Assembly: GCA_018825985.1 (NCBI GenBank)
Contig: JAHKAP010000038.1
Location: 1 to 32,868 of the forward strand
Direction of reading: 5' to 3'
Origin: Candidatus Omnitrophota bacterium
GTDB taxonomy: Bacteria; Omnitrophota; Gorgyraeia; Gygaellales; Profunditerraquicolaceae
Length of the DNA stretch: 32,868 bases
Numbering within the stretch: position 1 is the first letter of the stretch; each line of letters begins with the position of its first letter. Below, piece after piece: positions 14,187 to 32,868 of the stretch. The notes beneath the pieces were generated by a model that saw only the letters and a program-made list of their open reading frames with translations, was not told the origin of the DNA and searched no databases. The position numbers and the translations under genes are program-made.

Positions 14187-15503
14187 TTGAAGAAAATATT
14201 ATATATAATCTTAGACGGCTTAGGCGATCTGCCTATAAAAGAACTAGGCAATAAAACTCCTCTTGAGGCGGCGCTCACCCCTAATTTAGACCGTCTCGCC
14301 CAATCCGGCCTAACCGGAACCGTATTTCCTGTAGGAAAAGATATCTCGCCGGAATCGGATGTCGCGGTAATCAGCCTTTTAGGTTATGACGTTTTAAAAT
14401 ATTACACTGGACGTGGGCCGTTAGAAGCCTTTGCCGAAGGCTTAAATGTTTGTAAGGGTAATCTTGCGATAAGGGTTAATTTTGCCGCAGTAGAATATGA
14501 CGGTTTGGCCATTAGAGACCGCAGGGTAAAAAGGAGCTTAACTCTTGAGGAAGCCGGTAATCTGGCTAAAGAAATAAATTCTAAAGTAACACTTTCCAAC
14601 GCCACCTTTGAATTTAAAAATACAGCCGGGCATAGAGGAGTACTGGTAATAAGGGGTATGCATTCAAGCTTATCCGGCCATATTACTAATACCGATCCGG
14701 CTTATGCCAGGGATGGTTTGTTTAGCCGGGCCCTGGATAAATTTAATAATTCTGTGCAGGAATCAAGACCTATGCCGGGGTTCGAAGATTCTCTTGAGGC
14801 CGTTGAAGCAGCAAGTCTTTTAAACGAATTTACCCAAAAATCCCATCAAGTTTTAAATAATTCAGCAATAAATAAAAAAAGGGTCTCTTTAAATTTGCCT
14901 CAGGCGAATATGGTTCTGTCCCGCTCCTGCGGAGATTCTTTGCCGGAATTACCATCTTTTAGCAGTTTGTATAATAATATAAGAATGGGATCTTTCGTAG
15001 AGATGCCGGTAGAAAGAGGCATTGCTCTTTTGACCGGTATGGATATTGTAGACATACCTTCATCAACCGGGCATTTGGATGTTGATTATACTATATGGGC
15101 AAAAGTTATTCTGGATGCGTTGAAACGCTATGAAGGTTTATACATTCATATTAAAGGTCCGGATGAGCCAGGGCACGACGGAGATTTTGTCAGGAAAAAA
15201 AAGGTAATTGAAATGATCGATAAGTTCTTTTTTTCCGGACTGATCCCGGAGATAGATTTTAAAGATTTTATAATTTGTGTTACATCGGATCACTCTACTC
15301 CCTGCCTTAAAAAAGCTCATTCTTCCCAGGCCCTGCCTTTATTGATCTCAGGCGCTGGTATTACACCGGACGGATCTTTGAGTTTTTCTGAAAAAGCCGC
15401 TAAACTTGGCTCCTTAGGTGAAATGCAAGGCAGCCAGATAATGCCCCTTCTTGTAAAATTTGCCCGGGACGGTTCTGAAAACAATCTTAAAGTGTCCCCT
15501 TAG
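14187..15503 (+). CDS. apgM: 2,3-bisphosphoglycerate-independent phosphoglycerate mutase, archaeal type (ApgM)
   Basis: ApgM interconverts 3- and 2-phosphoglycerate in glycolysis and belongs to the alkaline phosphatase superfamily. The reading frame starts at a TTG (14187) right after nrdJ; MKKILYIILDGLGDLPIKEL is the expected N-terminus with metal-binding D10. Other landmarks are SPESDVAVISLLGYDV, the RVNFAAVEYDG region, GPDEPGHDGD and the metal-binding VTSDHSTPC...AHSSQALPLLI near the C-terminus. The 438-residue length is a little above the usual ~400. The final 12 residues (RDGSENNLKVSP) are encoded by the inverted end of the transposase element at 15466, so the native C-terminus has been replaced or extended. 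The core catalytic residues lie upstream of that join. The ribosome-binding site before TTG is weak. Confidence 0.9.
   Translation: MKKILYIILDGLGDLPIKELGNKTPLEAALTPNLDRLAQSGLTGTVFPVGKDISPESDVAVISLLGYDVLKYYTGRGPLEAFAEGLNVCKGNLAIRVNFAAVEYDGLAIRDRRVKRSLTLEEAGNLAKEINSKVTLSNATFEFKNTAGHRGVLVIRGMHSSLSGHITNTDPAYARDGLFSRALDKFNNSVQESRPMPGFEDSLEAVEAASLLNEFTQKSHQVLNNSAINKKRVSLNLPQANMVLSRSCGDSLPELPSFSSLYNNIRMGSFVEMPVERGIALLTGMDIVDIPSSTGHLDVDYTIWAKVILDALKRYEGLYIHIKGPDEPGHDGDFVRKKKVIEMIDKFFFSGLIPEIDFKDFIICVTSDHSTPCLKKAHSSQALPLLISGAGITPDGSLSFSEKAAKLGSLGEMQGSQIMPLLVKFARDGSENNLKVSP
15466..15499. repeat. Left hairpin end of the RAYT-like element
   Basis: GGGACGGTTCTGAAA plus AAAGTGTCCC separated by 8 bases. 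It is read through as the last codons of apgM; the apgM TAG stop at 15501-15503 lies just beyond it and overlaps the transposase stop on the other strand. Confidence 0.85.
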
Positions 15504-15976
15504 ATCGAAAATAAATTATCTAAAAGAGTCCATTCCTCTTTTCTGGCAAAATAACTGCTCCAGCGATATCTGCCTATTTGGGTTACTAAAGAAGCTCTTA
15601 CCGGATTATTTTCTACATACTCTATACACTGCAATAAGTAGCTATCTTTTTGTATAATTTTGCTTTTAAACCTGTCCTGCCATAAATGGCCTACTGTATT
15701 ATATTTTTCGTTGAAATATCGTGTATAGCTAAGGTTTAAACCACGCATAATTTTATTTAGGCTGGTCTTTATGGGAACATCCATAAGAAGATGTATGTGA
15801 TTGGGCATTAAACAGAAACAATATAATTTAGCCTTAAAGCGTTGTTTATATTTTTGTAACAGATATAAATATTTCTCATAGTCGGCAGGTTCTCTAAAAA
15901 CACATTGTTTTTGATTTCCTCTTGTGATAATATGATACGCGGTATTATCCATGGTCAATCTAGCAATTCTTGGCAT
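15500..15976 (-). CDS. REP-associated tyrosine transposase (Y1_Tnp / TnpA_REP)
   Basis: This is a single-strand DNA transposase of the HUH family, 158 residues from the chosen ATG (15974-15976). That start has a perfect GGAGGTGA ribosome-binding site (15982-15989 on the other strand); a longer frame exists upstream but lacks one. It begins MPRIARLTMDNTAYHIITRG, the standard opening of this family. The metal-binding HUH motif is PNHIHLLMDV (H60, H62). The catalytic tyrosine is probably Y120 in YLLQCIEYVENNPVRASLV, and WSSYFARKEEWTLLDNLF follows. All key residues are intact, so it could be active. It sits inside its hairpin ends and runs opposite to apgM and mnmG. Its stop codon overlaps the apgM stop. 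Confidence 0.93.
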   Translation of the reverse strand: MPRIARLTMDNTAYHIITRGNQKQCVFREPADYEKYLYLLQKYKQRFKAKLYCFCLMPNHIHLLMDVPIKTSLNKIMRGLNLSYTRYFNEKYNTVGHLWQDRFKSKIIQKDSYLLQCIEYVENNPVRASLVTQIGRYRWSSYFARKEEWTLLDNLFSI

Positions 15977-16043
15977 ATCTATCACCTCCTCAATATAATA
16001 GACGGTTAAACTATGAATTTCTAACAAGAAAATATTAAAAAAA

Positions 16044-26121: not shown

Positions 26122-27288
26122 GTGAAGAGAGAGATTTCTGGAATAGTGGAGAAGATGAAGCCGTCGGGGATAAGGGCTTTTTTTGACCTGGTTTTAGGCA
26201 TGAAAGATGTTATATCTCTAGGAGTGGGAGAACCTGATTTTGTTACGCCCTGGCAGATTCGCGAGGCTGGGATAACTTCCCTTGAGCAGGGTTTTACTTC
26301 TTATACTTCCAATAAAGGGCTTTATAAATTAAGGTTAAGCATAGCTCAGTATATGAAGAATAGATATGGCCTGGTTTATTCTCCTGATGATGAGATCCTG
26401 ATTACTGTAGGAGTCAGCGAGGCCAAGGATTTGGCTATGCGGACTATCCTTAATCCCGGAGATAAAGTTTTAGTCTGTAGTCCCAGCTATGTTTCTTACG
26501 GCCCGCTGGTGGAATTGGCAGGCGGCAAACCGGTGTATATTGATACCCGCAGCAGCGGATTTAAGCTTTCTCCCAAGGCTTTGGGAAAAGCTATAGATAA
26601 AAAAACTAAGGCCTTGATTTTGAATTACCCGTCTAATCCGACCGGGGTCTCTTATATCAGAAAAGAATTATCCGAGATCAACCGGGTTTTATTGAAACGC
26701 AATATTTTATGCGTTTCAGATGAGATCTATGGCGACCTGTCCTACGATTTTGAGCATACCCCTTTTCCGGTGTTATCCGGGGCTAAGGAGAATTGTATTT
26801 ATCTCAACGGATTTTCCAAGAGCTATGCTATGACCGGATGGCGGGTAGGCTATGCCTGCGGACCGAAAGATATAATCGCCGGGATGACCAAGATACATCA
26901 GTATACCATAATGTGCGTGCCTATAACTTCTCAAATGGCCGCTGCCGAGGCAATACATACCGGCAGGAAATCGGTAGAAGAGATGAAACGGGAATATAAA
27001 AGGCGCCGGGAATTTATGTGTGATGGTTTAACTAAGCTTAGGCTTGATTATGTTATGCCCCAGGGGGCGTTTTATTTCTTTGTCTCGGTCAAGAATACCG
27101 GGATGAGCTCTTTGAAATTTGCCGAAAGACTGCTTAAGGAAGAAAAAGTGGCTTTGGTTCCGGGAACGGCATTCGGAGAGAGTTTTGATGATTATGTCCG
27201 GATATCCTATGCCTCAAGCTATGAAAATCTTAAGGAATCGCTGATCAGGATCGGTTCATTTTTAAATAGAAGGAAAGGCCGTGGCTAA
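26122..27288 (+). CDS. Class I/II pyridoxal-phosphate aminotransferase
   Basis: The 388-residue protein is a fold-type I aminotransferase of the aspartate/aromatic aminotransferase group. The PLP lysine is K233 in FSKSYAMTGWRVGY, and other conserved residues are N172 (NYPSNPTG), D200 and Y203 (SDEIYGDL), and R241. The C-terminal arginine that binds the substrate carboxylate is visible in VRISYA. The reading frame starts with GTG (26122) after an AGAGG-type ribosome-binding site. Exact amino acid specificity is not readable; the pairing with an AsnC/Lrp regulator suggests a role in alanine, branched-chain or aromatic amino acid metabolism. The stop overlaps the next gene by 8 bp. Confidence 0.93.
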   Translation: MKREISGIVEKMKPSGIRAFFDLVLGMKDVISLGVGEPDFVTPWQIREAGITSLEQGFTSYTSNKGLYKLRLSIAQYMKNRYGLVYSPDDEILITVGVSEAKDLAMRTILNPGDKVLVCSPSYVSYGPLVELAGGKPVYIDTRSSGFKLSPKALGKAIDKKTKALILNYPSNPTGVSYIRKELSEINRVLLKRNILCVSDEIYGDLSYDFEHTPFPVLSGAKENCIYLNGFSKSYAMTGWRVGYACGPKDIIAGMTKIHQYTIMCVPITSQMAAAEAIHTGRKSVEEMKREYKRRREFMCDGLTKLRLDYVMPQGAFYFFVSVKNTGMSSLKFAERLLKEEKVALVPGTAFGESFDDYVRISYASSYENLKESLIRIGSFLNRRKGRG

Positions 27289-28006
27289 AAAAGAAACCAA
27301 GGAGAATTACAAGATATATTTAAAGCAGATCGAGGGGATCTCCAAGGTAGCCAGCCTGATCACCTCTGGTTTGTATTTGGATGAGTTGCTGCGCTTGGTA
27401 GTGAACGTTACTGCCGAGTTAATGAATTCCAAGATCTGCTCTTTGATGTTGCTGGACCCGGAGAAAAAAGAATTAGTGATCAAGGCTACCCAGTCAGTTT
27501 CAGAGGCCTATAATAAGAAACCGAATATTAAATTAGGTGAAGGCGTTTCTGGTAAGGTAGCTAAAGAAAATAAGCCTATCTGTGTGCTGGATGTTAAAGA
27601 AGATATCAGTTATAAGAATAGGGATATTGCTGAAAAAGAGGGGATCTGTTCTTTGGCCAGTGTTCCTTTGGCGGTTAAGGGCCGGGTGATCGGTGTACTT
27701 AACTGTTATACTACTAAAAAACATAAATTTACCAAGTATGAACTGGATATGTTAAGCGCGATGGCTAATCAGGCAGCCGTGGCTATTGAGAACGCGGAAC
27801 TAGATTTAAGGGCCCGCAGCGCCGAAGAGGCTTTATTGACCCGTAAGATGGTGGAACGGGCCAAGGATATACTTTCTCAAGAGGCGAATATCCTTCCTTC
27901 CGAGGCTTATAGATTGATCCAGAAACAAAGTATGGATAGCCGTAAATCCATGCGCGAGATCGCCGAGGCTATTATTTTGGCCAAGGATATCAAAGCCAAA
28001 ACTTAA
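27281..28006 (+). CDS. GAF-ANTAR protein (RNA-binding antiterminator-type sensor)
   Basis: The 241-residue protein has a GAF domain at ~28-172 (LYLDELLRLVVNVTAELMNS, LGEGVSGKVAKENKPICVLD, LASVPLAVKGRVIGVLNCY) and an ANTAR domain at ~183-235 (ALLTRKMVERAKDILSQEAN, then SEAYRLIQKQSMDSRKSMRE, IAEAIILAK). ANTAR domains bind RNA hairpin pairs and prevent termination, usually in response to a signal sensed by the attached domain. The start codon is GTG (27281), 8 bp inside the aminotransferase gene, so the two are coupled. I did not identify its RNA targets. Its signal is unknown; GAF domains can bind small molecules or sense redox state. Confidence 0.9.
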   Translation: MAKKETKENYKIYLKQIEGISKVASLITSGLYLDELLRLVVNVTAELMNSKICSLMLLDPEKKELVIKATQSVSEAYNKKPNIKLGEGVSGKVAKENKPICVLDVKEDISYKNRDIAEKEGICSLASVPLAVKGRVIGVLNCYTTKKHKFTKYELDMLSAMANQAAVAIENAELDLRARSAEEALLTRKMVERAKDILSQEANILPSEAYRLIQKQSMDSRKSMREIAEAIILAKDIKAKT

Positions 28007-28015
28007 CGCATCCCT

Positions 28016-28032
28016 AATTATAACCTATAATT
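28016..28032. repeat. Short palindrome after the GAF-ANTAR gene
   Basis: AATTATA (28016-28022), loop ACC, TATAATT (28026-28032), a perfect 7-bp inverted repeat ten bases before the hydrogenase-remnant ATG. It could be an operator or a small terminator without T-run; I cannot tell. Confidence 0.4.
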
Positions 28033-28041
28033 GAAAACCTT

Positions 28042-28352
28042 ATGAATCGCGAATATTTACTTTTAGCAGCTATCTTCATCCCGTTATTAGGGGCTTTTAT
28101 CCTGCTTCCTATAGGTTGGTTCTCTATGCGTGCAAGGAATTGTTTGGCGTTGTTTTTTGTTTTGGTATCTTTTATTGTTTCAGTTCGGCTTGTCCCGGTA
28201 GTAATATCCGTGAAGTCATAACTATAACGGGCGATAAGCAGTTTGAAGCGGAATTAGATATAGGGAAGTGTTTATATTGCGCTCAATGCGTCGACTCCTG
28301 CCCTAAAATGGAATGAGCTAAGGATGTAGAATTGGTTCAGTTAGGCCCCTAA
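28042..28352 (+). pseudogene. Remnant of an energy-converting [NiFe]-hydrogenase operon (first gene fused to last)
   Basis: From ATG 28042 a 59-codon frame encodes MNREYLLLAAIFIPLLGAF, then ILLPIGWFSMRARNCLALFF and VLVSFIVSVRLVPVV. This is the typical opening of a complex I-like antiporter subunit (NuoL/HyfB/EchA type). It stops at 28219-28221. In another frame, downstream of about 28225, GDKQFEAELDIGKCLYCAQC and then VDSCPKME is visible up to a TGA at 28314-28316. This is the second half of a hydrogenase/complex I ferredoxin subunit (HycF/EchF/NuoI type). After the TGA the same frame continues with AKDVELVQLGP to TAA at 28350-28352, as expected of that C-terminus. So the start of the first gene and the end of the last gene of such an operon are joined with all middle genes missing, plus one in-frame TGA. 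A maturation protease follows. Confidence 0.75.
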
Positions 28353-28371
28353 AGATTAAAAGTGAAATTAA

Positions 28372-28869
28372 GTGATAAATCTTAAAAAAAAACTTAAAGA
28401 AAAGCTTAAAGATGCCGGGAAGATCGCTCTTTTAGGGATAGGGTCGGAATTAAGGAGCGATGACGCGGCGGGAATTCTAGTGGCTAAAGAGCTTGAAGAG
28501 ATCCAAGGGAGGATAAAGGGTAAGCCGGAATTCAAGGTTTTTATCGGCGGGACTGCCCCGGAAAATGTTACAGGAGAGATAAAAAGATTTAAGCCGACCC
28601 ATCTGATTATTATAGATTCAGCTGAGGCAGGAGAGGAGCCTGGATCGGTAATGCTGATTGATCCGGGAGAGATCGGCGGAGTATCTTTCTCCACCCATGC
28701 CTTACCGTCTAAGATCATGGTTGATTATCTTCAGGATTCTCTGAAATGCGTTATAATAATGCTGGGGATCCAGCCTAAGACCATAAAATTCGGTGAAACT
28801 GTTTCACCGGCCATAGTAGGCGCGGTTAAAGAAGTAGTTAAAACCCTTAAAGAGATCATCCGGGATTAA
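28372..28869 (+). CDS. [NiFe]-hydrogenase maturation protease (HycI/HyaD type)
   Basis: The 165-residue protein cleaves the C-terminus of a hydrogenase large subunit after nickel insertion. It has the family opening IALLGIGSELRSDDAAGI (E26 as metal ligand), IIIDSAEAGEEPGSV (D82) and GVSFSTHALP (H109), all positions used for the nickel-recognition site. HAL-PSKIMVDYL also fits HycI. The start codon is GTG at 28372 with no clear ribosome-binding site. It sits at the end of the collapsed hydrogenase locus. It is intact, although I see no hydrogenase large subunit in the window, so its substrate must be encoded elsewhere or it is a relic. Confidence 0.9.
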   Translation: MINLKKKLKEKLKDAGKIALLGIGSELRSDDAAGILVAKELEEIQGRIKGKPEFKVFIGGTAPENVTGEIKRFKPTHLIIIDSAEAGEEPGSVMLIDPGEIGGVSFSTHALPSKIMVDYLQDSLKCVIIMLGIQPKTIKFGETVSPAIVGAVKEVVKTLKEIIRD

Positions 28870-28948: not shown

Positions 28949-28961
28949 AGCGAATGATTTT

Positions 28962-29033
28962 GCCGAAGTAGCTCAGTGGTAGAGCGCGGCCCTGAAAAGG
29001 CCGGCGTGGGGGGTCCGATTCCCTCCTTCGGCA
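28962..29033 (+). tRNA. tRNA-Phe (anticodon GAA) with unusual T-loop
   Basis: Acceptor GCCGAAG/CTTCGGC, D-arm GCTC/GAGC, anticodon stem CGGCC/GGCCG with loop CTGAAAA (anticodon GAA) and T-stem GGGGG/CCCTC (one G-T pair). The T-loop reads TCCGATT, so position 55 is C rather than the near-universal U, and position 48 is G rather than C. There is no encoded CCA, unlike tRNA-Thr in this window. The tRNA is followed by terminators and the mobile-looking region, so it may be the integration site. Confidence 0.88.
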
Positions 29034-29043
29034 TTTAATTTTT

Positions 29044-29070
29044 AAGAGGGGTTTCCATAACCCTCTTTTT
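29044..29070 (+). terminator. Rho-independent terminator after tRNA-Phe
   Basis: AAGAGGG (29044-29050), 10-nt loop, CCCTCTT followed by T residues. It lies 10 bp after the tRNA end. Confidence 0.85.
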
Positions 29071-29080
29071 TATTGCAGTT

Positions 29081-29121
29081 ATCCGTAATTCCTTTATTTT
29101 TAAGGGGGTTACGGATTTTTT
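29081..29121 (+). terminator. Second terminator
   Basis: ATCCGTAA (29081-29088) pairs with TTACGGAT (29109-29116), followed by TTTTT. It is a second hairpin in tandem, which may also block incoming transcription from the other side. Confidence 0.75.
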
Positions 29122-29168
29122 GTTTATCTATACCGATTTCACTATTTTTATATGTTTTTGTATTTATC

Positions 29169-29198
29169 TTGAGCTTAAAGGCTTGTTAAAGGCATAAT
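29169..29198 (+). promoter_or_regulatory. Promoter candidate for the DUF3987-like gene
   Basis: TTGAGC (29169-29174) and CATAAT (29193-29198), 18 bp apart. Plausible but weak. Confidence 0.35.
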
Positions 29199-29253
29199 TT
29201 TGGAGAGGGTTTCTTGTTTAAAAAAGTGGTAGAAAAGCAGGGAGGAAATGATA

Positions 29254-29307
29254 ATGACAACCAATGTATTGCTAACAAGTGAGGTGGCGTATGACGAACG
29301 ACATTAG
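29254..29307 (+). CDS. Short leader ORF overlapping the DUF3987-like gene
   Basis: A good ribosome-binding site (GGAGG at 29241-29245) precedes an ATG at 29254 that opens a 17-codon frame, MTTNVLLTSEVAYDERH, ending at the TAG of 29305-29307. It overlaps the first codons of the DUF3987-like gene in another frame. The main gene start (ATG 29291) lies inside it, with its own GAGGTGG (29281-29287) nearby. It may serve translational coupling. It is short and could be chance. Confidence 0.4.
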   Translation: MTTNVLLTSEVAYDERH

Positions 29308-30601
29308 TTCAATTCCAGAGACTTTAGAAACAGCGAGAAAAGTAGCAGGTAGAGTAATTGCTTCATACAAAGACGATAAACGATATTTTTCGGTGAACTA
29401 CTTGCCAGATGGGTTTCTAAAAGACTATGTTAATTTCGCTGAGCCATTAACAGAAGCCCCAATCCAATATCACATCGCTACAGCATTATCACTTGTTGCT
29501 ACTTGTCTTGGCAGAAGCGTATATTTGAGTGAGGGGGCAACAGAGTATTATCCTAACCTATATGTTTTGGTAATAGGAGAATCAGGAATTACAAGGAAAT
29601 CAACAGCTACGGGACTTGCGAAGAGGTTTCTGTCTAACATTGATTCTAGTTTAGTCTTGGGGGCGTTAGGAAGCAAGGAGGCTTTCCTTGAGGCGTTTAG
29701 AAACAATTACTGCCACTTAATTATATTTGATGAATTAAAGCAGTTATTAGATAACGCAGAGAAGTCTTATGGGACAGGAATTATAACTGACTTCACTATG
29801 CTTTGGTCTTGTCCGCCAAGCCACAGGTTTGAATTTAAGAGTATGGATGAGAAAGAACGGGAAATAAAAGATCCGACACTAAATATTTTATCTTGCACAA
29901 CCCCAGATTGGTTAATGATTAAAGAACACGATATCGGAGGTGGATTCTTAGGAAGATTCCTCCCCATATTTTCTACCAAGCCAGTTAAGCGTATGCCCAT
30001 CAGACCGAAGATGGACTCGGGCGAATTTGAGAGGTTAATAAGTGAATTAAAGCGGATCAGGGAAATCAAAGGCGAGTATGTATGGACTGAAGAAGCACAA
30101 AGGCTCTTTGAGGGCTTATATAATGAACTTATGGACGGGTTAGAGAAAGAAGAAGAAAAAACCAAGCTACAGCCTTACTGGAGCAGGATTGATACCCATA
30201 TAAGGAAGTTGGCTATGATATTTGATGTTTGCTCTCCACAACCGACCTTTACCATAACTAAAGACAATCTGATGAGAGCGTTTGGAATGATGGAACTTAT
30301 AACCGAGTATTACAAAGAAATGCTTGGGTGTATAAGCTATTCATTTGTGGATAAGAAAGAGAAGCAGTTTATCAATATTCTAGAGAGCGTAGGAGTGCAG
30401 GGCATAGATCATTCAAGGGCTTTGCAGAACCTACACATAGATGCCAAGCTGATGCAGGGATTAGTGGCAACGCTTATAGAGAAAGAGTTAATAGTTTTGA
30501 ATACTGAGAAGCAGCCGGGAGACAGAAAGGCAGTAAAAAGATACTACGCTAAGCAGTATGCTGATCTTTTAGTTATAGAAGGCGAACAGGCGAATAGTTA
30601 G
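29291..30601 (+). CDS. DUF3987-like P-loop ATPase
   Basis: The 436-residue protein resembles proteins annotated DUF3987 (YfjI-like), which occur on phages, plasmids and integrated elements and are suspected helicase/primase-type ATPases. In sequence order there is an HIATALSLVATCLGRSVYLS segment, EYYPNLYVLVIGESG, and a Walker-A-like GESGITRKST with G96, K103 and S104. It is longer than a standard Walker A by spacing. A Walker B, LIIFDELKQLL (143-153), follows, then TLNILSCTTPDWL, GGGFLGRFLPIF and a C-terminal winged-helix-like region near residues 350-430. The ATG at 29291 is favoured over the upstream GTG because a GAGGTGG ribosome-binding site lies right before it. The exact role is unknown. 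Confidence 0.7.
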   Translation: MTNDISSIPETLETARKVAGRVIASYKDDKRYFSVNYLPDGFLKDYVNFAEPLTEAPIQYHIATALSLVATCLGRSVYLSEGATEYYPNLYVLVIGESGITRKSTATGLAKRFLSNIDSSLVLGALGSKEAFLEAFRNNYCHLIIFDELKQLLDNAEKSYGTGIITDFTMLWSCPPSHRFEFKSMDEKEREIKDPTLNILSCTTPDWLMIKEHDIGGGFLGRFLPIFSTKPVKRMPIRPKMDSGEFERLISELKRIREIKGEYVWTEEAQRLFEGLYNELMDGLEKEEEKTKLQPYWSRIDTHIRKLAMIFDVCSPQPTFTITKDNLMRAFGMMELITEYYKEMLGCISYSFVDKKEKQFINILESVGVQGIDHSRALQNLHIDAKLMQGLVATLIEKELIVLNTEKQPGDRKAVKRYYAKQYADLLVIEGEQANS

Positions 30602-30827
30602 CAAAGCCTTGCTAGTTATTCTAATTATCGGTAATTATTCAGCTAATAGTTAGCAATAGTTAGCAACTACTCTGCTAATTATTCAAGCCCGTTTTTAAGC
30701 ACGAATTAGCCAATAATTAACAATTAACATATATTTATATATACTCTACTTAAAAACAGACAAATTGATTGATTAAAGACCTTTTATTCTACGGTTATAT
30801 ATAGGGGCTGCTAATTGCTAATTATTC
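30595..30827. repeat. Iteron-like repeat cluster
   Basis: TAGTTAGCAA occurs three times (30595-30604, 30647-30656, 30657-30666), the last two in tandem. GCTAATTATTC or a one- or two-base variant occurs four times (30611-30621 GCTAGTTATTC, 30630-30640 GGTAATTATTC, 30674-30684, 30817-30827). The rest of this 269-bp gap is very AT-rich. Such clusters occur at plasmid or phage replication origins, and the DUF3987-like gene ends in the first copy. I call it a candidate origin only. Confidence 0.5.
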
Positions 30828-30870
30828 GTTTTGTTATTATAAAGTGGGGTAAATGTAAAGGGGTGGCACA

Positions 30871-31182
30871 ATGGCTTGGGAAACAAGAGGGAATAATAAA
30901 TATTACTACCGGAAGAAGAAAGTAAACGGCAAGGTTACTTCCGAGTATGTGGGAAAGGGGTTAGTGGCTCAAGAGATCGCCTTGAGGGATTTAGCAGAGA
31001 GGCAGGAAAGAAATAAGAAAGCTGAGGCTATAAAGAAAGAAAAGACCGATCTCCAATTATTAGATGAGCAGGTAACTCAAGTAACCTCGTTTATAAAGCA
31101 GGTTTTAGAAAATGCTCTTATAGTGTATGGTTTTCATAAGCATAATGGTCAGTGGAGAAAGAAACGAAATGGAAGAACATGA
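30871..31182 (+). CDS. Small basic protein with WETRGNNKYYYRKKK N-terminus; unknown function
   Basis: The 103-residue protein opens MAWETRGNNKYYYRKKKVNG and continues KVTSEYVGKG. It then has a charged helical middle (RDLAERQERNKKAEAIKKEK) and ends HKHNGQWRKKRNGRT. It is very basic and probably cytoplasmic; it has no membrane helix. I have an impression, which I cannot verify here, that proteins starting WE-x-R...YYYR and ending in GYH-x-H..WRKRR occur in planctomycetes and other bacteria, next to genes like the following one. It has a GGGGTGG ribosome-binding site 6 bp before the ATG. It overlaps the next gene by 14 bp, so the two are coupled. Nucleic-acid binding is a guess from charge alone. 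Confidence 0.7.
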   Translation: MAWETRGNNKYYYRKKKVNGKVTSEYVGKGLVAQEIALRDLAERQERNKKAEAIKKEKTDLQLLDEQVTQVTSFIKQVLENALIVYGFHKHNGQWRKKRNGRT

Positions 31183-31735
31183 AGTCCAGATGATGCCTCT
31201 TGAGCAGCAGAAGGGAGAGTTTTACGAAACACTCCAAAAAATATTTAAGAAGGAAAGCCCGGATGCCAATATAGAGAAGGCGAAAGCTATGCTTAAAAAT
31301 AATCCAGATGTATGGAAAAAATATGTTGGGCTAAGTTATAGCACGATGAGAAAGTTTTTAGCTGTTTTTGGTGAAGAAAAAGGCAACCAATTGCTTATAG
31401 AGGCTGAGGTATTAAGCATAAGAAATGGTTTAGGCTATGCTTCAGCAAGCCAGTTAGAGCGGCTTATCATAGATCAGATTATGCTTTGTTGGGCACGAAT
31501 AAATCATGCTGAGTATATGGTGGTCATTATGGTTTTGGAAAATTATTCTTATTACAAAAGAGACCATTTGGAATATTGGCAAAATAGATTAATCTTTTAT
31601 CAGAATAGCTATTTGAAAGCAATAGAAACGCTTGCCAGGGTCAGGAGGCTGAGTAAGGGTGTAGCGTTCCAGGTGAACATAGCCACAGATGGAGGTCAGC
31701 AGGTCAATGTTAATGAAGTTAAGAAAGAGGAATGA
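31169..31735 (+). CDS. Uncharacterised protein with LARVRRL and QVNI..QQVNV C-terminus
   Basis: I chose the ATG at 31169 (188 residues). An earlier in-frame ATG at 31127 adds 14 residues, but the GGAGAAAG just upstream of 31169 favours the shorter form. The protein is mainly helical. Its middle contains YSTMRKFLAVFGEEKGNQLL and QLERLIIDQIMLCWARINHAE, then SYLKAIETLARVRRLSKGVA and FQVNIATDGGQQVNVNEVKK at the end. The LARVRRL plus QVNI...QQVNV signature looks like that of small uncharacterised proteins that I recall from planctomycetes and mobile elements; this is memory, not a search. It overlaps the preceding 103-residue gene by 14 bp, so the two form one unit. Confidence 0.7.
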   Translation: MEEHEVQMMPLEQQKGEFYETLQKIFKKESPDANIEKAKAMLKNNPDVWKKYVGLSYSTMRKFLAVFGEEKGNQLLIEAEVLSIRNGLGYASASQLERLIIDQIMLCWARINHAEYMVVIMVLENYSYYKRDHLEYWQNRLIFYQNSYLKAIETLARVRRLSKGVAFQVNIATDGGQQVNVNEVKKEE

Positions 31736-31843
31736 GGTTGAGACCTACCAAACAAGTTAATACTTCTTTAGAATAGGGTTTAGGAGCATTTTCAATAAGG
31801 GAATTATGGTAGGGACTTATTTGGTATGCTAATAGGAGAAACA

Positions 31844-32005
31844 ATGACTTTAAGTGGAGTAAACAAGGTTTGTCAGCAATGCACCGGGGTCTGTAAACAA
31901 TGGGAGCAAGTTAAGGTTATCCGTTGTCCTATGTTTAAAAGTAGGCAAAGTCTAAAAGTGGATGCCCTTCAAGCACAGCAATACGAAAAAGAAGCCCAAA
32001 GTTAA
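31844..32005 (+). CDS. Small cysteine-rich protein, possible zinc-binding
   Basis: A 53-codon frame, MTLSGVNKVCQQCTGVCKQW, then EQVKVIRCPMFKSRQSLKVD, ends at the TAA of 32003-32005. Four cysteines (C10, C13, C17, C28) are arranged CxxC...C...C, compatible with a single zinc site. The ribosome-binding site AGGAG lies 7 bp before the ATG. Its base composition and context match the mobile-looking region. It is short; the cysteine pattern and ribosome-binding site are the reason I keep it. Confidence 0.55.
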   Translation: MTLSGVNKVCQQCTGVCKQWEQVKVIRCPMFKSRQSLKVDALQAQQYEKEAQS

Positions 32006-32065
32006 GCGATTTCTGGCAGATGACCTTACGGACGGCTTTTTGAGTTCGTTGATTGTAGGGCAGAT

Positions 32066-32449
32066 TTAGGGTTTAATTCTCCATATAACAAGGCGAATGA
32101 AGTAAACAATCGGGTAAGCAGAAACATATGCCATAGTTAAACTATTAGGTATTATTCCTAAAAGCCCAATAGTCCAATAGGAGAAGAATATTATCAATTC
32201 TCTGCGGTTAATAATAGTATCCCCAAATGTTTTATGATTTTTAAATCCAATTTTAAAGAAATATAAGAAGTTACAAATAGCACCAATAATTATAAGCGAA
32301 TAGAGGAGGCTTAGCTTATAACTAAGTTGATATGAAATTATAAGCAAGGGAAACATAATTATACTCATTAATATAGCAACCATATTCAAATCTATGATAA
32401 AAGCTACTATTTTTTTTAGCCAATAAGATATTGGATTAGCATTAGTCAT
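32066..32449 (-). CDS. Small membrane protein, RDD-like
   Basis: The 127-residue protein has three or four hydrophobic segments (VAFIIDLNMVAILMSIIMFP, LSLLYSLIIIGAICNFLYFF, IIFFSYWTIGLLGIIPNSLT, and a C-terminal helix). The sequence KKIVAFIID...FKIGFKNHKTFGDTI fits the RDD family, which has a D in helix 1 and a G-x-x-T/S loop. Function in RDD proteins is generally unknown, possibly ion transport. It overlaps the following minus-strand gene by 8 bp and is convergent with the small genes to its left. I see no terminator between them. Confidence 0.65.
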   Translation of the reverse strand: MTNANPISYWLKKIVAFIIDLNMVAILMSIIMFPLLIISYQLSYKLSLLYSLIIIGAICNFLYFFKIGFKNHKTFGDTIINRRELIIFFSYWTIGLLGIIPNSLTMAYVSAYPIVYFIRLVIWRIKP

Positions 32450-32868
32450 TTTGTTCCTTATTTTCAGCGATCTGCATAGCCGTTACTAAATATGTTTGGA
32501 ATAAAGCTGCACCTATCCAAAGAATACGCAGAGGAATTAAAGAAATCCCTGTAAATAAATACATAAACGCAAGAGTAAACCAGGTCAGAATGGCTAAGAA
32601 TATACCAATATTAGTGCCTATGCTATCTTTATCTTCTCCTCTTGCCATATACGCAAGGGGGCCCATAGCTACTCCATAAGACCATATTAGCAAGGGTATC
32701 CAATTATTATCAGTAGTTTTAGATAAAAACGTATTAAAGACCATATAAACCCAAATTACAATTAAAAAGTTTTGGTATATAGTATTTAGTAATGCACAAA
32801 TAACAATCATCGGAATATTTTTTCTCTTGTTAAAGTATTTAAAAAGGGGAATTACTATTAATGTGACC
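32442..32868 (-). CDS. Small membrane protein (5' end outside window)
   Basis: The reading frame does not stop at the right edge: upstream of the internal ATG at 32810 the frame continues through VTLIVIPLFKYFNKRKNIP with no stop, so the start is beyond the window. It is a hydrophobic protein with about four transmembrane segments (ALLNTIYQNFLIVIWVYMVF, WIPLLIWSYGVAMGPLAYMA, NIGIFLAILTWFTLAFMYLF, then GISLIPLRILWIGAALFQTY). It has a short charged C-terminus (QIAENKEQND). I recognise no family. It is co-transcribed with the RDD-like gene. Whether they belong to the mobile element or to the host is not clear. Confidence 0.65.
   Translation of the reverse strand, partial: VTLIVIPLFKYFNKRKNIPMIVICALLNTIYQNFLIVIWVYMVFNTFLSKTTDNNWIPLLIWSYGVAMGPLAYMARGEDKDSIGTNIGIFLAILTWFTLAFMYLFTGISLIPLRILWIGAALFQTYLVTAMQIAENKEQND

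Follow-up and report, generated by a model that had tools for sequence, protein, structure and literature searches.

The window analyzed here is the entire contig C60 (32868 bp) of the Omnitrophota genome G000, an assembly of 1.77 Mb in 84 contigs with an estimated completeness of ~94%; the other G numbers denote genomes of the same family. The locus under study is read on the forward strand. An aminotransferase class I/II gene (26122..27288; Pfam PF00155, E 3e-72) is followed by a gene encoding a GAF-ANTAR protein (27281..28006; Pfam GAF_2 and ANTAR). Both belong to the conserved upstream neighborhood of the operon described below: the aminotransferase is 69–73% identical to its neighbor-gene counterpart in G023, G038, and G025, and the GAF-ANTAR gene is 77–83% identical and keeps its position in the same three genomes. 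By consensus scan alone, a candidate promoter-like site (TTAACG-17-TATAAT) lies at 28003..28031 and is possibly the old operon promoter.

The next feature is the stub of a first antiporter-like subunit gene (28042..28215). Its frame translates from 28042 as MNREYLLLAAIFIPLLGAFILLPIGWFSMRARNCLALFFVLVSFIVSVRLVPVVISVK, followed by Ser and a TAA at 28219, giving 59 open codons. The stub aligns with codons 1 to ~58–59 of the intact first antiporter gene of eight relatives at 37–56% identity (best E 2e-10), a gene that types as NuoL/HyfD-like. The family HMM alone returned an E value of 0.026, which is too weak to convince; the identity of the stub is certain because both stubs at the locus share order, strand, and flanking genes with their intact counterparts in G038 and G025.

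The second stub (28215..28385) corresponds to the final third of a ferredoxin gene of the NuoI/EchF type, as identified by alignment, tblastn (E to 1e-12), and NCBIfam (FpoI/PRK08348, E 1e-6 to 1e-5). Read from 28215, it translates as VITITGDKQFEAELDIGKCLYCAQCVDSCPKME*AKDVELVQLGP*RLKVKLSDKS*, where asterisks are stops. Aligned to nine intact ferredoxins, it shows no frameshift, keeps one cluster motif (CLYCAQCVDSCP), and reaches the native 3' end, with the native stop at 28383–28385 overlapping the start of hycI as in relatives. Two in-frame stops precede that end, a TGA at 28314–28316 and a TAA at 28350–28352, so that the stub is unable to yield the protein. The sequence-only reading had described the 5' end of an antiporter-like gene fused, in another frame, to the 3' end of a ferredoxin gene, with a later TGA breaking the ferredoxin frame. 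Translation, alignment, and synteny with intact operons agree with this description, and the TAA at 28350 is a further stop that it had overlooked. The boundaries where antiporter homology ends and ferredoxin homology begins place the deletion junction at ~28209–28218 (28209..28218), within the interval of 28,200–28,230 proposed previously.

Could the short frames, open for 59 and 66 codons, be expressed as new micro-proteins, one a short membrane peptide and the other a ferredoxin fragment with a single cluster? We regard this as highly improbable. The ferredoxin frame contains the second cluster motif alone and is broken by both stops, its open part begins within out-of-frame antiporter sequence, and in G023 the counterpart stub carries a different frameshift and no longer has that second motif.

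Downstream of the stubs lies an intact gene, with a GTG start, for a HycI-type [NiFe] hydrogenase maturation protease (28372..28869), which scores 136.9 bits against TIGR00142 (cut-off 119.1), as expected from the earlier claim of an intact protease at this position. In an alignment with Escherichia coli HycI (2e85; E 2e-18), the D, D, and H of the SDD, IIIDS, and STH positions are kept; we take these to be the metal-binding residues. A tRNA-Phe (GAA) gene found by ARAGORN (28961..29034, forward strand) forms the right-hand border, ahead of a different gene set. Beyond it, from 29041 to 32868, the G+C content falls to ~38%, and this region, which carries a DUF3987 gene (29279–30601) and unknown ORFs, is possibly an integrated element truncated by the contig end. 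Two small REP-associated/Y1 transposase-like genes, recognized by eye alone, occur elsewhere in G000, at 15500–16027 of the window and at L189:8046–8534.

The intact operon in related genomes

In G038 and G025, the same upstream genes precede a complete operon. The gene order is aminotransferase, GAF-ANTAR, antiporters 1, 2, and 3, NuoJ-like, NuoK-like, NuoA-like, small subunit, 30 kDa subunit, large subunit, NuoH-like, ferredoxin, and HycI; the arrangement that had been reconstructed for the ancestor, with an antiporter first, a ferredoxin last, and then HycI, is exactly what these genomes contain. Judged from the coordinates, ~9.0 kb of operon sequence between these neighbors separates the points that are joined in the window. 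Other relatives carry full or partial operons of the lost type.

The large subunit of the intact relatives has both nickel-binding CxxC motifs (RVCGICSHTH and DPCFSCTDR in G038), and its nearest characterized counterparts are the alpha subunit of Pyrococcus Mbh (6cfw; E 2e-94) and HycE of formate hydrogenlyase (7z0s; E 5e-83). Like these group-4 enzymes, the operon of the relatives combines the two CxxC nickel motifs with a small subunit, three antiporter-like subunits, a NuoH-like membrane subunit, a 2[4Fe-4S] ferredoxin, and HycI. In contrast, the window retains two partial genes, one from each end of the operon, and HycI alone; on its gene content, the locus is a remnant rather than a member of the group-4 [NiFe] hydrogenase operons. 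Compared with Hyc and Ech, the operon of the relatives has an added NuoK-like subunit, which exceeds the Pfam cut-off, together with NuoA- and NuoJ-like subunits that match weakly and fall short of it; this set of subunits places the operon nearer complex I. The segment of G038 from antiporter 1 to HycI (L045) thus encodes an unusually complex-I-like hydrogenase with a nickel-binding large subunit.

Loss of the operon in G000 and its sister G023

The sequence-only reading had noted that all the middle genes, including the hydrogenase subunits, are gone, and had left the choice between a single large deletion and an assembly mis-join. A genome search revealed that the sole PF00346 large subunit of G000 and its two PF00361 antiporters are all encoded in another operon, situated on contig C22; subunits of the lost type were found nowhere else in the 84 contigs of this 94% complete genome.

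A mis-join would mean that metagenome assembly had fused the two ends of a complete operon, with the middle placed elsewhere or lost. The fragmentation of the G000 assembly is compatible with such an error, but G000 contains no other large subunit or antiporter of the lost type, and a mis-join would not create two stops in the ferredoxin stub. Furthermore, the operon is independently absent from this position in G023, which the trees of HycI (95/94) and of the large subunit (85/90) both place as sister to G000. There, the ANTAR gene is followed within 300 bp by an intact HycI, and the intervening stub is a frameshifted ferredoxin that keeps N-terminal parts and lacks the second cluster motif. 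Given this second loss at an identical position, in which erosion of the ferredoxin remnant took another form, we regard a mis-join as very improbable and strongly favor a real deletion. The breakpoints of the two scars differ, reflecting either one old loss that eroded differently or two losses.

The locus is the remnant of a lost group-4 (energy-converting, Mbh/FHL-related) [NiFe] hydrogenase operon. One deletion of ~9.0 kb, or several successive deletions that finished at the present junction, took out all catalytic and most membrane subunits; the missing stretch extends from codon ~58 of antiporter gene 1 to ~codon 62 of the ferredoxin gene. The ferredoxin stub acquired its stops later.

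A second group-4 hydrogenase and the retention of HycI

G000 retains another group-4 [NiFe] hydrogenase, encoded on contig C22 and continuing on contig C21. This operon comprises beta and FNR-like subunits, a ferredoxin, a membrane subunit, the small, 30 kDa, and large subunits, a PhoU-like protein, an antiporter, Mrp-type MnhB-G, and HycF. The large subunit has the motif DPCYCCTER followed by a C-terminal extension of ~38 residues, the kind of extension that HycI removes (PMC7654741). In relatives, the C22-type block continues with a patatin, a lipoprotein, in some cases a symporter, a second protease that we term HycI-B, and a DUF3568 lipoprotein. HycI-A, the type found in the window (clade support 99/94), and HycI-B form separate clades.

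The HycI-B slot is occupied in eleven relatives (G004, G011, G018, G029, G033, G038, G046, G049, G062, G069, and G107). In G000 (contig C79), G066, and G025, the slot is assembled but contains no HycI-B, and these three carry HycI-A alone. In a TIGR00072 search, HycI was the sole protein matched in each of G000, G023, G066, and G025. The reverse case is found in G034, G068, G069, G070, G071, G072, and G073, in which an operon of the lost type is present, the ferredoxin is not followed by HycI-A, and HycI-B is the sole protease. In G009 (82% complete), where the other hydrogenase is present and the slot is empty, no protease was found; its absence is either tolerated or the gene is situated in a gap. 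G074, considered as a counter-example with both hydrogenases and no protease, was rejected, as its protease slot is masked by N. Across the family, a HycI relative is present in 74 of 108 genomes. A scan of the genome collection with HycI gave one match, a duplicate of G065 DNA.

As no other maturation protease was found in G000, HycI most likely survived by serving the C22 enzyme. We infer that HycI-A processes the C22 hydrogenase and was retained for that reason. On the simplest reading of these gene distributions, either protease may be able to serve either hydrogenase, so that one would be dispensable, and in G000 the survivor would be the one in the ruined operon. Selection would then keep hycI because cleavage after DPCYCCTER is still required in the large subunit of the second group-4 hydrogenase, whose own HycI-B has been lost. 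Overall, we assign a probability of roughly 0.75 to the reading that this region is what remains of a group-4 operon, with hycI kept under selection for the C22/C21 hydrogenase lacking its own HycI-B.

The competing explanation is that HycI is young debris, a gene that nothing retains and whose decay has not yet begun. The usual location of a HycI gene is the operon of its target enzyme, which fits this explanation, and pS between the HycI genes of G000 and G023 is saturated, so that the comparison does not isolate selection after operon loss. However, the adjoining ferredoxin stub already has stops, and the sister G023, whose HycI is 53% identical, also has an intact HycI after operon loss. 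The values for this HycI pair (pN 0.30, pS 0.75) count toward retention under selection. G066 likewise retains HycI-A without the operon, and in all three genomes HycI-A is the only protease while a hydrogenase of the processed type persists. We therefore consider young debris unlikely. Orphans of HycI-A represent only two or three independent cases (G000/G023 and G066). In the second, independent orphan (G066, L054:2412–2906), HycI-A stands alone directly 3' of a fused EF-G-like gene, with hydrogenase genes absent nearby.

The locus is a synteny-established case in which a whole energy-converting hydrogenase was lost and its protease spared. Natural gene loss in two directions supports the exchange of HycI-type proteases between different group-4 hydrogenases, a reading that runs against the older view in which each protease is dedicated to one enzyme. 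The first laboratory exception to that view showed that E. coli HycI and Pectobacterium atrosepticum HyfK are interchangeable in vivo, the E. coli hyf operon being without a protease of its own (PMC7654741). The HycI of the window belongs to the same family (TIGR00142) as these two proteins. In contrast to the HycI/HyfK swap, the swap inferred here is deduced from patterns of gene loss and spans two clearly distinct group-4 hydrogenases, whose large subunits share ~45% identity.

HydG and a HypC::HydE fusion in [NiFe] hydrogenase genomes

Beyond the ruined operon itself, the more novel lead is a possible hybrid maturation of the [NiFe] enzymes. In G000 and G023, a HydG gene lies directly 3' of HycF, and C21 of G000 carries both HydG and a fusion of HypC and HydE parts (L116:1553–4106). 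C21 HydG scores 536 bits against TIGR03955 (cut-off 312), and its translation has the CX3CX2C motif CINDCDYC and the C-terminal cluster motif CTACYR...FC. The HydE part of the fusion scores 239.5 bits against TIGR03956, below the equivalog cut-off of 254.6, and the HypC part passes the Pfam HupF_HypC cut-off and reaches 41.5 against TIGR00074, below the cut-off of 48. C21 thus resembles the [FeFe] maturases HydG and HydE and the [NiFe] maturase HypC in part composition, having HydG plus a fusion of a HydE-like radical SAM part with a HypC part. Unlike known HydE and HypC, the two parts are fused, both fall just under their NCBIfam cut-offs, and they are situated in or beside [NiFe] operons of genomes in which HypD, HypE, and HypF were not found.

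We ran a composite query on 16 genomes, all of which have [NiFe] large subunits. The query combined HypC::HydE and HydG from C21, HypD and the C-terminal part of HypF from G066, and hand-written consensus sequences for HydA and HypE. With the HydA consensus, scores against solved [FeFe] hydrogenases reached 332 bits, and the HypE consensus gave a match at 51–55% in all seven Hyp genomes. HypD, HypE, and HypF are present in G066, G025, G004, G019, G038, G069, and G053, and neither HydG nor HypC::HydE was found in these seven. Conversely, HydG and/or the fusion is present in G000, G023, G056, G057, G083, G085, G091, G092, and G100, and HypD, HypF, and HypE were not found in these nine genomes, whose assemblies are 75–94% complete. 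Weak matches to the HypE segment (28–31%) are read as related proteins of the AIR-synthase type. The lineages behind this mutual exclusion are non-independent and amount to about three clades. HydA was found in G085, G091, G092, and G100 alone among the 16 genomes queried.

The genomic positions link these genes to [NiFe] operons and their proteases. In G056 (L097:12611–15162), the order is HycF, protease, HydG, HypC::HydE. The fusion lies immediately 3' of HycI-A in G091 (L055:11194–12489) and G100 (L057:13718–15010). It lies behind the protease of a second [NiFe] hydrogenase in G083 (L053:1980–3275), G085 (L193:6754–10167), and G092 (L195:6276–7574), and behind HypA as well in G083 and G085. 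The remaining loci are in G057 (L197:213–1391) and G023 (L199:3–749). Several g55 genomes have a separate, stand-alone HydE, which in G100 adjoins HydA, HydG, and a HydF-like GTPase. The stand-alone and fused forms of HydE fall into distinct clades (100/100). Among plasmid records, the best ten fusion matches cover the HydE part alone, from residue 42 or later, and none includes a complete HypC part.

All eight fusions start with MCY.IP and retain Cys2, and in all eight the HypC His (VHAGFAI), which is present in five canonical HypC proteins (L156, L157, L202, L203, and L204), is replaced by Gln (Y[AV]QGG). Four large-subunit residues separate the HydG-type from the Hyp-type genomes, none of them at the Arg-containing APRG motif.

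In [FeFe] enzymes, HydG makes CO and cyanide from tyrosine. These genomic associations point to a hybrid [NiFe] maturation route that appears undescribed; among open papers, we found no report of HydG/HydE or HypC::HydE in [NiFe] maturation. In this route, HydG and HypC::HydE would replace HypD, HypE, and HypF for the [NiFe] hydrogenases of C22 and related lineages, with HycI making the last cut, a proposal to which we give even odds. HydG yields two CO and one CN, and the [NiFe] site holds one CO and two CN. Because these counts do not match, a hybrid route would imply either that HydE-HypC rearranges the ligands or that the site differs. If the proposal is true, [NiFe] and [FeFe] cofactor assembly would be exchangeable in nature, and Omnitrophota without HypD/E/F that carry HydG and/or HypC::HydE would make the interchangeability of the Fe(CO)(CN) chemistry of both classes directly testable.

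Two further observations concern genes related to those above. A second, divergent HydG-like gene, ~42% identical and in a clade of its own, is present in G000 (contig C8, L188:7826–9316) and G057 (contig C9, L198); HydA was not found in either genome, and the C8 gene sits among MinD-like ATPases and radical SAM genes. Finally, G090, G101, G093, G055, G094, and G089 contain a 37–41% relative of the [NiFe] large subunit, and the match crosses one TAA in each.
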